Source of the DNA: an uncultured Tenacibaculum sp.
GTDB taxonomy: Bacteria; Bacteroidota; Bacteroidia; Flavobacteriales; Flavobacteriaceae
Direction: 5' to 3'
Length of the DNA: 64,000 bases
NCBI GenBank assembly: GCA_947492185.1
Contig: CANLMR010000001.1
Span: 1,078,433 to 1,142,432, forward strand
Below, piece by piece: positions 5,927-59,791 of the stretch. The position numbers and the translations under genes are program-made. Each line of letters starts with the position of its first letter. Within the stretch, counting starts at the first letter, position 1. The notes beneath the pieces were generated by a model. The model was not told the DNA's origin. It worked only from the letters and a program-made list of their open reading frames with translations, and did not search any database.

Positions 5927-6820
5927 ATGAAAATAGTTATAGCTGGAGGGACTGGATATTTGGGAAAGTTGCTTACCGAATATTATAAACAAGAAAAAGA
6001 GAATGAAATTTACATTTTAACAAGAAGTCAAAAATTGAATTCTAAAAATGTAAACTATATACAATGGGATGGTAAAACCAAGGGATATTGGACTGAGCTA
6101 CTTGAAGAAACAGATGTTTTAATAAATCTAACAGGGAAATCTGTAAACTGCAGATATACTAAAGAAAATAAAGCAGAAATTTATGCAAGCAGATTACAGA
6201 GCACAGCATTATTATGTGAAATTGTTCAAAACTTAATAATACCACCTAAAGTTTTTATCCAGTCTTCTTCAGCTACTATTTACAGGCATTCAGAAGATAA
6301 ATTAATGACTGAAAAAGATGGAGAAATAGGAGTAGATTTTTCTATGGATGTTTGTAAAAAATGGGAACAAGTATTTAATAGTTATGAGTTACCAAAAACA
6401 CGAAAGATTATTACGAGAACTTCGATTGTATTGGGTAATCAAGGAGGAGCTTTTCCTCTTATGAAGAGAATGACCAAATTTGGTTTAGGAGGACAACAAG
6501 GAAAAGGGAATCAATTTATCAGTTGGATTACCGAGAAAGACTATGTACTAGCAATTGACTATTTAATACATAAGCCATCAGGTGTTTACAATTTATGTGT
6601 TCCTAATCCAATTACAAATAGAGGATTTCAAAAGGAACTTCGTAGGAAATTAAAAGTTCTAGTAGGGATTAATACTCCAAAACTGTTATTAAGTATAGGT
6701 GCGAAGATTATCGGAACGGAAACAGAATTGTTATTGAAAAGTAGAAAAGTTTATCCTCAAAATCTTCTTGATTTAGGTTTTGAGTTTGGTACTACAAAGT
6801 TTAATGAATTAAAAATTTAG
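5927..6820 (+). CDS. TIGR01777-type NAD-dependent epimerase
   Basis: MKIVIAGGTGYLGKLL Rossmann motif; SSSATIYRHSEDK. Confidence 0.85.
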   Translation: MKIVIAGGTGYLGKLLTEYYKQEKENEIYILTRSQKLNSKNVNYIQWDGKTKGYWTELLEETDVLINLTGKSVNCRYTKENKAEIYASRLQSTALLCEIVQNLIIPPKVFIQSSSATIYRHSEDKLMTEKDGEIGVDFSMDVCKKWEQVFNSYELPKTRKIITRTSIVLGNQGGAFPLMKRMTKFGLGGQQGKGNQFISWITEKDYVLAIDYLIHKPSGVYNLCVPNPITNRGFQKELRRKLKVLVGINTPKLLLSIGAKIIGTETELLLKSRKVYPQNLLDLGFEFGTTKFNELKI

Positions 6821-32391: not shown

Positions 32392-32664
32392 ATGGAAAAT
32401 GTTTTAAGATATTATGACTTTTCAGATTTTTTTAAAGATGAATCTGGAACTTTTGAAGGAAAACTGATTTCTTTTACATCATTAAATTCAGAACATTTTT
32501 TAATTTTTGTAAACGATAGAGAAAAATATGATTTATATGTTTCTAAATTCAGTTCAGAAAAAGAAATAGGAAAGAAACCTCCAGAGATACTGGAGTTATT
32601 GATGAAAAACTACGATAAATCAATACCAGAACACCGAGTAATTTTAAGGAAATATTTATACTAA
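32392..32664 (+). CDS. hypothetical protein
   Basis: ORF directly following clpS. Confidence 0.55.
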   Translation: MENVLRYYDFSDFFKDESGTFEGKLISFTSLNSEHFLIFVNDREKYDLYVSKFSSEKEIGKKPPEILELLMKNYDKSIPEHRVILRKYLY

Positions 32665-32669
32665 AAGTA

Positions 32670-32700
32670 AAAGATCAAATTTTTTTTGATCTTTTTTTTT
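32670..32700 (+). terminator. intrinsic terminator
   Basis: AAAGATCAAATTTTTTTTGATCTTTTTTTTT. Confidence 0.8.
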
Positions 32701-32708
32701 ATCCATGT

Positions 32709-32969
32709 GTGACTTATCAAAAAATGTTGTGTCTTATTAAATGTAACAACGAATGAGAAGTTGTTACAAACTTAAAAAGTTCATTGTAATAATAGATATC
32801 CCTTAAAATTTAGAAGGCCAAATCCCCAAAAAAAGAACTTCTTTTAGTATGGTTTCAGAAAGAAGAAGTTCAGGCTTTATAAAATATAAGTTAAAATAGT
32901 AGTAGTTAGTTTTTATACTAAGTTTGGTTAGACAAAAGAGCCTCAGGCTAAAGTTTGAGGCTTCTTTTT
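32709..32969 (+). ncRNA. putative tandem sRNA unit 1 (promoter box, body, 41-nt element, terminator)
   Basis: GTGAC-N15-GTGTC at 32709-32733; 41-nt element at 32893-32933; terminator GAGCCTCA...TGAGGCTTC+T5. Confidence 0.65.
32893..32933 (+). repeat. 41-nt invariant element, copy 1
   Basis: AAAATAGTAGTAGTTAGTTTTTATACTAAGTTTGGTTAGAC. Confidence 0.97.
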
Positions 32970-32995
32970 AAACAAAAAAGAAATTTTAAAGGATT

Positions 32996-33165
32996 GTGAC
33001 TTTTTAAATATTAAAGTGTCATAATAATAGAAACAACAAGTATTTTTAATTGGTTGTTTTAAATTTAAAAATATATAGTTAGTAAAATAGTAGTAGTTAG
33101 TTTTTATACTAAGTTTGGTTAGACATGAAGCCTCAGACAACAAGTTTGAGGTTTTCTTTTTTTTT
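32996..33165 (+). ncRNA. putative tandem sRNA unit 2
   Basis: GTGAC-N15-GTGTC at 32996-33020; 41-nt element; terminator AAGCCTCA...TGAGGTTTT plus T-run. Confidence 0.65.
33084..33124 (+). repeat. 41-nt invariant element, copy 2
   Basis: identical to copy 1. Confidence 0.97.
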
Positions 33166-33187
33166 AGAGGTTTTTTTAGAAAAAAAA

Positions 33188-33404
33188 GTGACTTATCAAA
33201 AAATGATGTGTCTTAATTAATGTAACAACGAAAGAAATATACAAAATATATTATCCTGTTAGGATAGTTTAATTCCCAATAAAGACTTTAAATAGTCAAT
33301 ATAATTTTAAGTGTAAATAGTTAGAAAAATAGTAGTAGTTAGTTTTTATACTAAGTTTGGTTAGACGATGAGACCCTAGGTGAAAGCCTGGGGTTTCTTT
33401 ATTT
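33188..33404 (+). ncRNA. putative tandem sRNA unit 3
   Basis: GTGAC-N15-GTGTC at 33188-33212; 41-nt element; terminator GACCCTAGG...CCTGGGGTT. Confidence 0.65.
33326..33366 (+). repeat. 41-nt invariant element, copy 3
   Basis: identical to copy 1. Confidence 0.97.
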
Positions 33405-33419
33405 AAGAATGTTTTTTTT

Positions 33420-33634
33420 GTGACTTATTGAAAAAAGTTGTGTCTTAATTAATGTAACAATGAAAGAAATAAAAAAAATATTCTATTTAAGATAGTTTGA
33501 TTCCCAATAAAGACCTTAAATAGTCAATATGATTTTTAAGTGTAAATAGTTAGAAAAATAGTAGTAGTTAGTTTTTATACTAAGTTTGGTTAGACTTTAA
33601 ACCTTGAGTTCTTTACTCGAGGTTTTTGTTTTTA
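33420..33634 (+). ncRNA. putative tandem sRNA unit 4
   Basis: GTGAC-N15-GTGTC at 33420-33444; 41-nt element; terminator AACCTTGAGT...ACTCGAGGTT plus T-run. Confidence 0.65.
33555..33595 (+). repeat. 41-nt invariant element, copy 4
   Basis: identical to copy 1. Confidence 0.97.
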
Positions 33635-33892
33635 TATAAATGTTAATTTTTAAAGATTAAGTTTAAATTCATTACAAGATGTTTTATTTAACTGATTTCT
33701 CTAGTAAATTAGTAGGTTAAAATTGCAAATAGTTTATTTTTAACGTCTTAAACGTTTAATAAAACACAAAAATGTTTAAATGTTAACATTTAAGATAATT
33801 CTGTGAAATAACAAATAAATGTTAAAATGGTGAATAAAATGTTATATTTTCGTTAAAAATTTTTTATAAACCATTAAAAACTAAATTTAAAA

Positions 33893-56918: not shown

Positions 56919-57204
56919 AGTTGATTTAATTTTGTTGTCCTTACTCTATTAAAAGCTTTTCAGGTTTCGCTATGTTGGAGTTTATACTAACTCCATTACA
57001 AATATTTAATGAATAGTCTGAAAAAAGAAGTGTATAGAGTTGTTATTTATAAAATATGGAGGTATTTTTTAAAAAAAATGACTACTAAAATAATGTTTAA
57101 TCAATTGCTTTTCAGTGGTTTATGTTGTTTTCTTCTGATTTAGGTTTCAGATGTTAAATAGAGCCTAAAAAAAAACTAATTTTAGAAAACAAAAACTATT
57201 AATT

Positions 57205-59309: not shown

Positions 59310-59705
59310 GGGGACGACTGGTTTTGACAGCAAGACTAGTAAAACTGTAAGCATACCGAGGATTGAAATGACTACTCGTAAAACTTATTTCAACAATTTA
59401 AACGGCGAAAATAATTACGCTTTAGCTGCTTAATAATCTGAATTATAGTAAGATTCAAGCCTAGTCCCGCGAGGCGGGAAAGCTAAATGTCCACGAAAAG
59501 CCTTGGTTTGCGGCGTTTCACTTTTGGGCATCGTAAAAGTAAACATAGAAAATCTAATACTTCGATAGATTTTCGAAACTAAAGAAGATAAGCTAAAAAT
59601 GGGCCGTTCTTAGTCAGCTTTTAGTCGAAAATTAAATAAGAACTAAGTATGTAGAAAGCTTTTTTGCTACTTGTTTGGACCCGAGTTCGATTCTCGGCGT
59701 CTCCA
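59310..59705 (+). ncRNA. ssrA: transfer-messenger RNA
   Basis: 5' GGGGACGACTGGTTTTGACAGC; tag frame GGC GAA AAT AAT TAC GCT TTA GCT GCT TAA (59404-59433, GENNYALAA); 3' GAGTTCGATTCTCGGCGTCTCCA. Confidence 0.96.
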
Positions 59706-59791
59706 CAAAATTTTAATCCCTGTAACTTTTGTTGTAGGGATTATTTTTTTAGATAATTATATGCTTTTTCGATTAAGTTTATTCTATTGTT

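Follow-up and report, generated by a model that had tools for sequence, protein, structure and literature searches.

The four tandem units described here are read as genes for a multicopy small RNA (sRNA) that is induced by an extracytoplasmic-type (ECF) sigma factor and feeds back negatively on the operon of that same sigma factor. This reading is considered likely, at a probability of about 0.72, and rests on no RNA data.

Results

Four self-terminated units in tandem

The window, meaning the whole 64,000-nucleotide stretch of Tenacibaculum DNA analysed, contains four exact copies of a 41-mer on the + strand (chance expectation 0.00), with start-to-start distances of 191, 242 and 229. In the organism's own 3.39-Mb genome the copies are confined to this array, even when up to three mismatches are allowed in a 30-nt core. 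The features are as follows, in window coordinates.

32664..32703, + strand: hairpin and T-run (inverted repeat) that closes the tpiA-prmA-clpS-orf90 operon and sets the array apart
32709..32736, + strand: ECF-type promoter of sRNA unit 1 (GTGAC-N15-GTGTCTTA)
32743..32969, + strand: predicted sRNA 1, from promoter and terminator; start placed from the -10 box, about +/-3 nt
32893..32933, + strand: 41-nt invariant core, copy 1
32938..32969, + strand: intrinsic terminator 1, from terminator scan and compensatory changes
32996..33023, + strand: ECF-type promoter of sRNA unit 2
33030..33166, + strand: predicted sRNA 2, inferred
33084..33124, + strand: 41-nt core, copy 2
33127..33166, + strand: intrinsic terminator 2, from terminator scan
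33188..33215, + strand: ECF-type promoter of sRNA unit 3
33222..33404, + strand: predicted sRNA 3, inferred; folded as far as 33398
33326..33366, + strand: 41-nt core, copy 3
33370..33404, + strand: intrinsic terminator 3, from terminator scan
33420..33447, + strand: ECF-type promoter of sRNA unit 4
33454..33634, + strand: predicted sRNA 4, inferred
33555..33595, + strand: 41-nt core, copy 4
33599..33634, + strand: intrinsic terminator 4, from terminator scan

Each predicted RNA is composed of a variable 5′ body, the common 41-nt core and its own terminator, with predicted sizes of about 227, 137, 183 and 181 nt for units 1 to 4 (the size of unit 3 using an end at about 33404). Between 32600 and 33900 there are 4 terminator-like sites where 0.2 are expected, all on the + strand and one per unit. 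Since the preceding tpiA-prmA-clpS-orf90 operon has a hairpin and T-run of its own, the array is separate from it. The best reading is that of independently promoted, self-terminated tandem sRNA genes, which is inferred from sequence alone, no transcript having been measured.

An initial annotation had proposed a tandem sRNA family, with each unit ordered as promoter-like box, body, 41-mer and hairpin with T-run. The order held by sequence, the 41-mer spacing held exactly, and the reported stop codons in all three forward frames of the 41-mer, its short TTAGT/ACTAA stem and the size estimate of 130-230 nt (predicted here as 137-227 nt) were likewise confirmed. The claim that GTTTGGTTAGAC is unpaired held only in part, its mean unpaired probability being 0.38-0.57 in whole-transcript folds. 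The sRNA family itself is supported as the best reading by the conserved core, the compensatory terminators and the fixed-spacing promoter. Read-through from clpS, named there as an outcome that would refute the proposal, is unlikely given the operon terminator, and its exclusion needs RNA data. Only a promoter-like box had been named; the ECF site, the sigma factor, the putative regulon and the predicted target are new here.

The 41-mer was also considered as a promoter in itself, on account of the resemblance of TAAGTTTG to TAnnTTTG. This was rejected by inspection, as a suitably spaced -33 TTG is missing, and the product would be a terminator hairpin only.

The promoter motif and its ECF sigma factor

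The motif GTGAC-N15-GNGTCWWA lies upstream of 78 of the 88 homologous units, always with a gap of 15 nt, and takes the form GTGAC-N15-GTGTC(T/A)TA in the array itself. Its halves were not found at gaps of 8-14 or 16-23 in any of the 88 units, nor in shuffles. The distance from AC to GTC is 17 nt, the geometry of ECF -35 and -10 elements, a comparison of spacing that draws on general knowledge of such elements. A scan for sigma70-type promoters gave no excess. With at most one mismatch the motif occurs at 18 sites in the own genome as against 1 for the reversed pattern, and in many cases an envelope-type gene has its start codon 20-60 nt downstream of the site.

One site, elsewhere in the genome (G000:C10:32555), stands immediately before an ECF sigma gene (G000:C10:32622-33191) that encodes 190 aa from a TTG start, with Sigma70_r2 and r4_2 domains and TIGR02937. 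The gene is divergent from rpoD in the own genome; it adjoins rpoD in every ECF-positive genome examined and is missing there in ECF-negative ones. The motif is carried by 28/30 Tenacibaculum and Polaribacter orthologues and by 11/16 from other genera. Polaribacter orthologues have 9-13 nt between the end of the motif and the ECF start codon, and the motif must therefore be the core promoter of the gene. That the ECF sigma recognises the promoters is supported by sequence only, namely by the 78/88 units and by the restriction of the motif to ECF-positive genomes. Across many Flavobacteriaceae genera the ECF gene is mostly TTG-started, rpoD-adjoining and autoregulated (L131-L176). The gene after it in the own genome encodes a 70-aa protein without Pfam match, and no membrane anti-sigma gene was seen beside the ECF gene there.

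The ECF operon also includes an MscS channel gene. Other motif sites precede a second MscS channel, an M48 metalloprotease resembling BepA/LoiP, an OmpA-domain protein, a DUF4230 protein, a conserved 485-aa secreted protein and small lipoproteins, and several of these members recur in other genomes. Judged from sequence alone, the motif-linked gene set has the appearance of an envelope-stress regulon.

Two further putative RNAs with terminators were observed just downstream of the ECF-mscS operon and before porT (L124:6340-6440 and 6460-6580; G000:C10). The first lies where the sigma operon ends and has the hairpin GGTAGATTTCGGGGGACTTCTATC, the second is preceded by a separate ECF-type promoter near 6462, and neither has an Rfam match. 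About 14 Tenacibaculum genomes conserve a GATAGATTTCGGGGGACTTCTATC-like hairpin at the same position.

Co-occurrence of sigma factor, motif and sRNA

Thirteen ECF-positive genomes tested for exact motif copies contained 106 (3-14 each), with 1 in total for the reversed control, and ten near-complete ECF-negative congeners contained none. The tally leaves out G070 (3 motif copies) and G064 and G073 (none), the ECF status of which is undetermined. Among near-complete genomes, ECF gene and sRNA were both present in 35 and both absent in 11; one had the ECF gene only and none the sRNA only (Fisher 7e-10). A weak 34-bit sRNA match in G006 was taken as noise in this table. The exception, G011 (L316), is near-complete and has the ECF gene without a detectable sRNA. 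The remaining discordant genomes are incomplete, and G053, first scored as ECF-negative, has the ECF gene next to rpoD. On the rpoD tree about 6 changes are needed, and only 4 independent supported pairs of ECF gain or loss are available, 3 of them concordant, none discordant and 1 uninformative. With so few independent pairs, phylogeny alone is suggestive and does not prove the link between ECF and sRNA.

Conservation of the array

The core was found by blastn in 61 of 99 same-genus (Tenacibaculum/Polaribacter) genomes at 1-7 copies each, so the absence from all other genomes that would have refuted the initial annotation is not seen. No blastn match to the core was obtained in 200 other genomes of the family, and none in records of the genus Flavobacterium. 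The invariant part is ATAGTAGTAGTTAGT-loop-ACTAAGTTTGGTTAGAC, with a loop of variable length. The terminator stems diverge in sequence yet stay paired, with two-sided compensatory changes at 10 pairs. Most species have a single copy, and the locus is syntenic, directly after tpiA-prmA-clpS-orf90 in nearly all genomes; copy amplification has therefore been mostly in place. The M57 protease gene adjoins the array in some genomes only.

No Rfam family matched at gathering score, nor at permissive thresholds, where the best sub-threshold matches were unrelated; Flavo-1, suggested earlier as a check, gave no match, and the MicA, RybB and MicL covariance models left the array unmatched. In other genera a covariance model of the sRNA gave 29 matches besides the own genome, of 301 (E 1e-6 to 7e-4). 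These were not counted as members: those inspected lacked the ECF motif, and the likeness was mostly GTTTGGTTAG plus terminator. The GTTTGGTTAG module stands directly before terminators in other Flavobacteriaceae genera (L211-L229) without an upstream ECF motif, and is sometimes multicopy (G115, G244, G268 and G345). It may possibly represent a related sRNA superfamily.

Elsewhere in the window, a tmRNA gene (59310-59708, + strand; Rfam RF00023, 155.5 bits) and a DUF805b RNA motif (56938-56973, - strand; RF02914, 39.7 bits) were found.

Predicted pairing with the sigma operon

In Tenacibaculum the core shows complementarity to the ECF mRNA shortly before its start codon, with sites at about -18 to -5 relative to that codon. 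The pairing site is AAYYRRAYUUA at -15 in six orthologues and AACUAACUA at -18 in five others. For 14 Tenacibaculum ECF leaders the mean duplex energy was -20.0 kcal/mol; dinucleotide-shuffled versions of the 41-mer gave -14.3, and 0/1000 of them were as low. ECF leaders of genera without the sRNA gave 199/1000. The shuffle test randomises the sRNA and is thus not inflated by kinship among the leaders, whereas Mann-Whitney values are.

The Tenacibaculum mscS leader scored -16.7 as against -12.5 for shuffles, with 1/1000 as low. Outside Tenacibaculum the mscS leaders gave 12-13/1000, with 12/1000 in genera without the sRNA, so the signal is partly compositional; mscS is kept as a secondary predicted target on complementarity only, not as the main one. 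In a ranking of 400 leaders, a sample that covers about 14% of the own genome, that of mscS came 3rd and that of the ECF gene 21st. The leader of the adjacent M57 protease gene was rejected as a target at rank 217/400. Genome-wide matches to the antiseed showed no excess over the reversed control and were not used as target evidence.

Polaribacter ECF leaders, at about 8 nt, gave 133/1000 shuffles as low, which is not significant. The short leader of most Polaribacter-type genomes (L145-L160) probably removes the feedback site, the sRNA being kept, and feedback is not predicted by the model for these species. Since the core stays conserved in Polaribacter, other targets are likely.

Discussion

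Proposed circuit

In the circuit proposed here, an envelope signal would free or activate the ECF sigma, which would then transcribe the four sRNA genes along with its own operon and the envelope regulon, the sRNAs being about 137-227 nt long. In Tenacibaculum the core would pair around two translation starts of the sigma operon, that of the sigma gene and that of mscS, probably blocking translation, and the outcome would be a fast, multicopy negative feedback acting as a repressive arm that damps the response. The copies, promoters, terminators, conservation, sigma-promoter link and complementarity on which this rests are shown by computation. That the units are transcribed, where exactly the transcripts start, and in which direction and how strongly they regulate are inferences from the DNA.

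Alternative explanations

The strongest rival, itself unlikely, holds that ECF-driven sRNAs mainly repress or tune other mRNAs, such as those of outer-membrane or surface proteins and proteases, the pairing with the sigma operon being minor or fortuitous. In its favour, the E. coli sigmaE sRNAs repress mainly outer-membrane proteins (PMC8103513), the core is conserved in Polaribacter despite weak pairing with the ECF leader, and some sampled leaders outscore that of ECF. Among these are the leaders of an 822-aa secreted TonB-receptor-like protein (L267) and a TetR-like regulator (L270), both named from reading N-termini and not from a family search, and leader L271, which has a 13-nt match. 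Against it, 14 species together give a strong signal for the ECF leader; the cross-species tests covered the ECF operon only, and the ranking is of 400 leaders from ~14% of the genome.

It is very unlikely that the GTGAC/GTGTC direct repeat, with its 20-nt period, is an activator site (e.g. for a LytTR response regulator) at sigmaA promoters. The half-sites are indeed direct repeats about two helical turns apart, but in many genera the motif is found in front of the ECF gene itself, in Polaribacter just 9-13 nt separate it from the start codon, genomes without the ECF gene are also without the motif, and its spacing fits ECF -35 and -10 elements.

That the array is a repeated 3′ processing or terminator cassette, or a mobile repeat, and not a set of regulators, is all but excluded. 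The GTTTGGTTAG-plus-terminator module does occur in other flavobacterial genera, in some cases at mRNA ends, but each unit here has its own fixed-spacing promoter, the terminators show compensatory changes, and the element keeps to one conserved locus, is single-copy in most species and lacks insertion-element features. Remote, too, is the coding of small peptides: units 1, 2 and 4 do contain ORFs of 11-17 codons, but none is common to the units, unit 3 has no ORF of at least 10 codons, and the core has stops in all frames.

Relation to known systems

The ECF-sRNA feedback reading resembles the MicA, RybB and MicL sRNAs of E. coli sigmaE (RpoE) in having promoters for an ECF sigma that drives both its own gene and a set of envelope genes, and in pairing near translation starts and feeding back negatively on the sigma response, both of which are predictions for the array (PMC8103513, PMC12249550). 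It differs in that the array sequence is unrelated, the -35 element is GTGAC and not the GGAACTT of E. coli sigmaE (PMC8103513), 1-7 tandem copies lie at one locus in a Bacteroidota host, the sigma mRNA itself is a predicted pairing partner, and in the own genome no gene for a membrane anti-sigma was seen next to the ECF gene.

The FopS family with GibS of Bacteroides thetaiotaomicron is likewise one of multicopy Bacteroidota sRNAs with a common seed; they pair near start codons (PMC11697453), as is predicted from complementarity for the array. Co-expression of FopS copies could give dosage and speed (PMC11697453), a logic common to the array. The 14 FopS copies have canonical sigmaABfr promoters and repress SusC mRNAs (PMC11697453). 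In contrast, the array is tandem at one locus, its seed is close to the 3′ terminator, and its promoter is ECF-type and not of the canonical sigmaABfr kind. Rfp18 of Flavobacterium psychrophilum is a genus-conserved sRNA that affects metalloprotease mRNAs (PMC9723704). Both are flavobacterial and the array happens to adjoin an M57 protease gene, but the leader of that gene is not a predicted target, nor is M57 a constant neighbour. The Qrr sRNAs of Vibrio are several near-identical sRNAs with additive action under one common regulator; they are driven by sigma54 and LuxO, mostly dispersed, and serve quorum sensing. The array shares with Qrr the several near-identical sRNAs under one regulator, here a predicted one, and differs in being tandem with ECF-type promoters. 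No ECF-dependent sRNA in Bacteroidota was found in the open-access literature searched, which is limited evidence of novelty.

Implications

A bolder reading, no more than possible, is that of a Bacteroidota-specific envelope-stress system in which an autoregulated ECF sigma without evident adjacent membrane anti-sigma is restrained chiefly by RNA. The restraints could be the tandem sRNA on the sigma mRNA together with the second ECF-linked sRNA pair (GGGGGAC-loop hairpin) just downstream of the sigma operon. If this were true, the copy number of the array would set the feedback gain.

The sRNA arms of sigmaE type are known mainly from proteobacteria, and the array offers a concrete, testable counterpart in Bacteroidota. 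What is gained is a sigma factor conserved in Flavobacteriaceae and the sequence of its promoters, together with a list of regulon genes, predicted sites of pairing and an sRNA output encoded in several copies. With them comes an ECF promoter consensus for a phylum with poorly mapped alternative sigma factors. The natural series of 1-7 copies may bear on why bacteria multiply sRNA genes.
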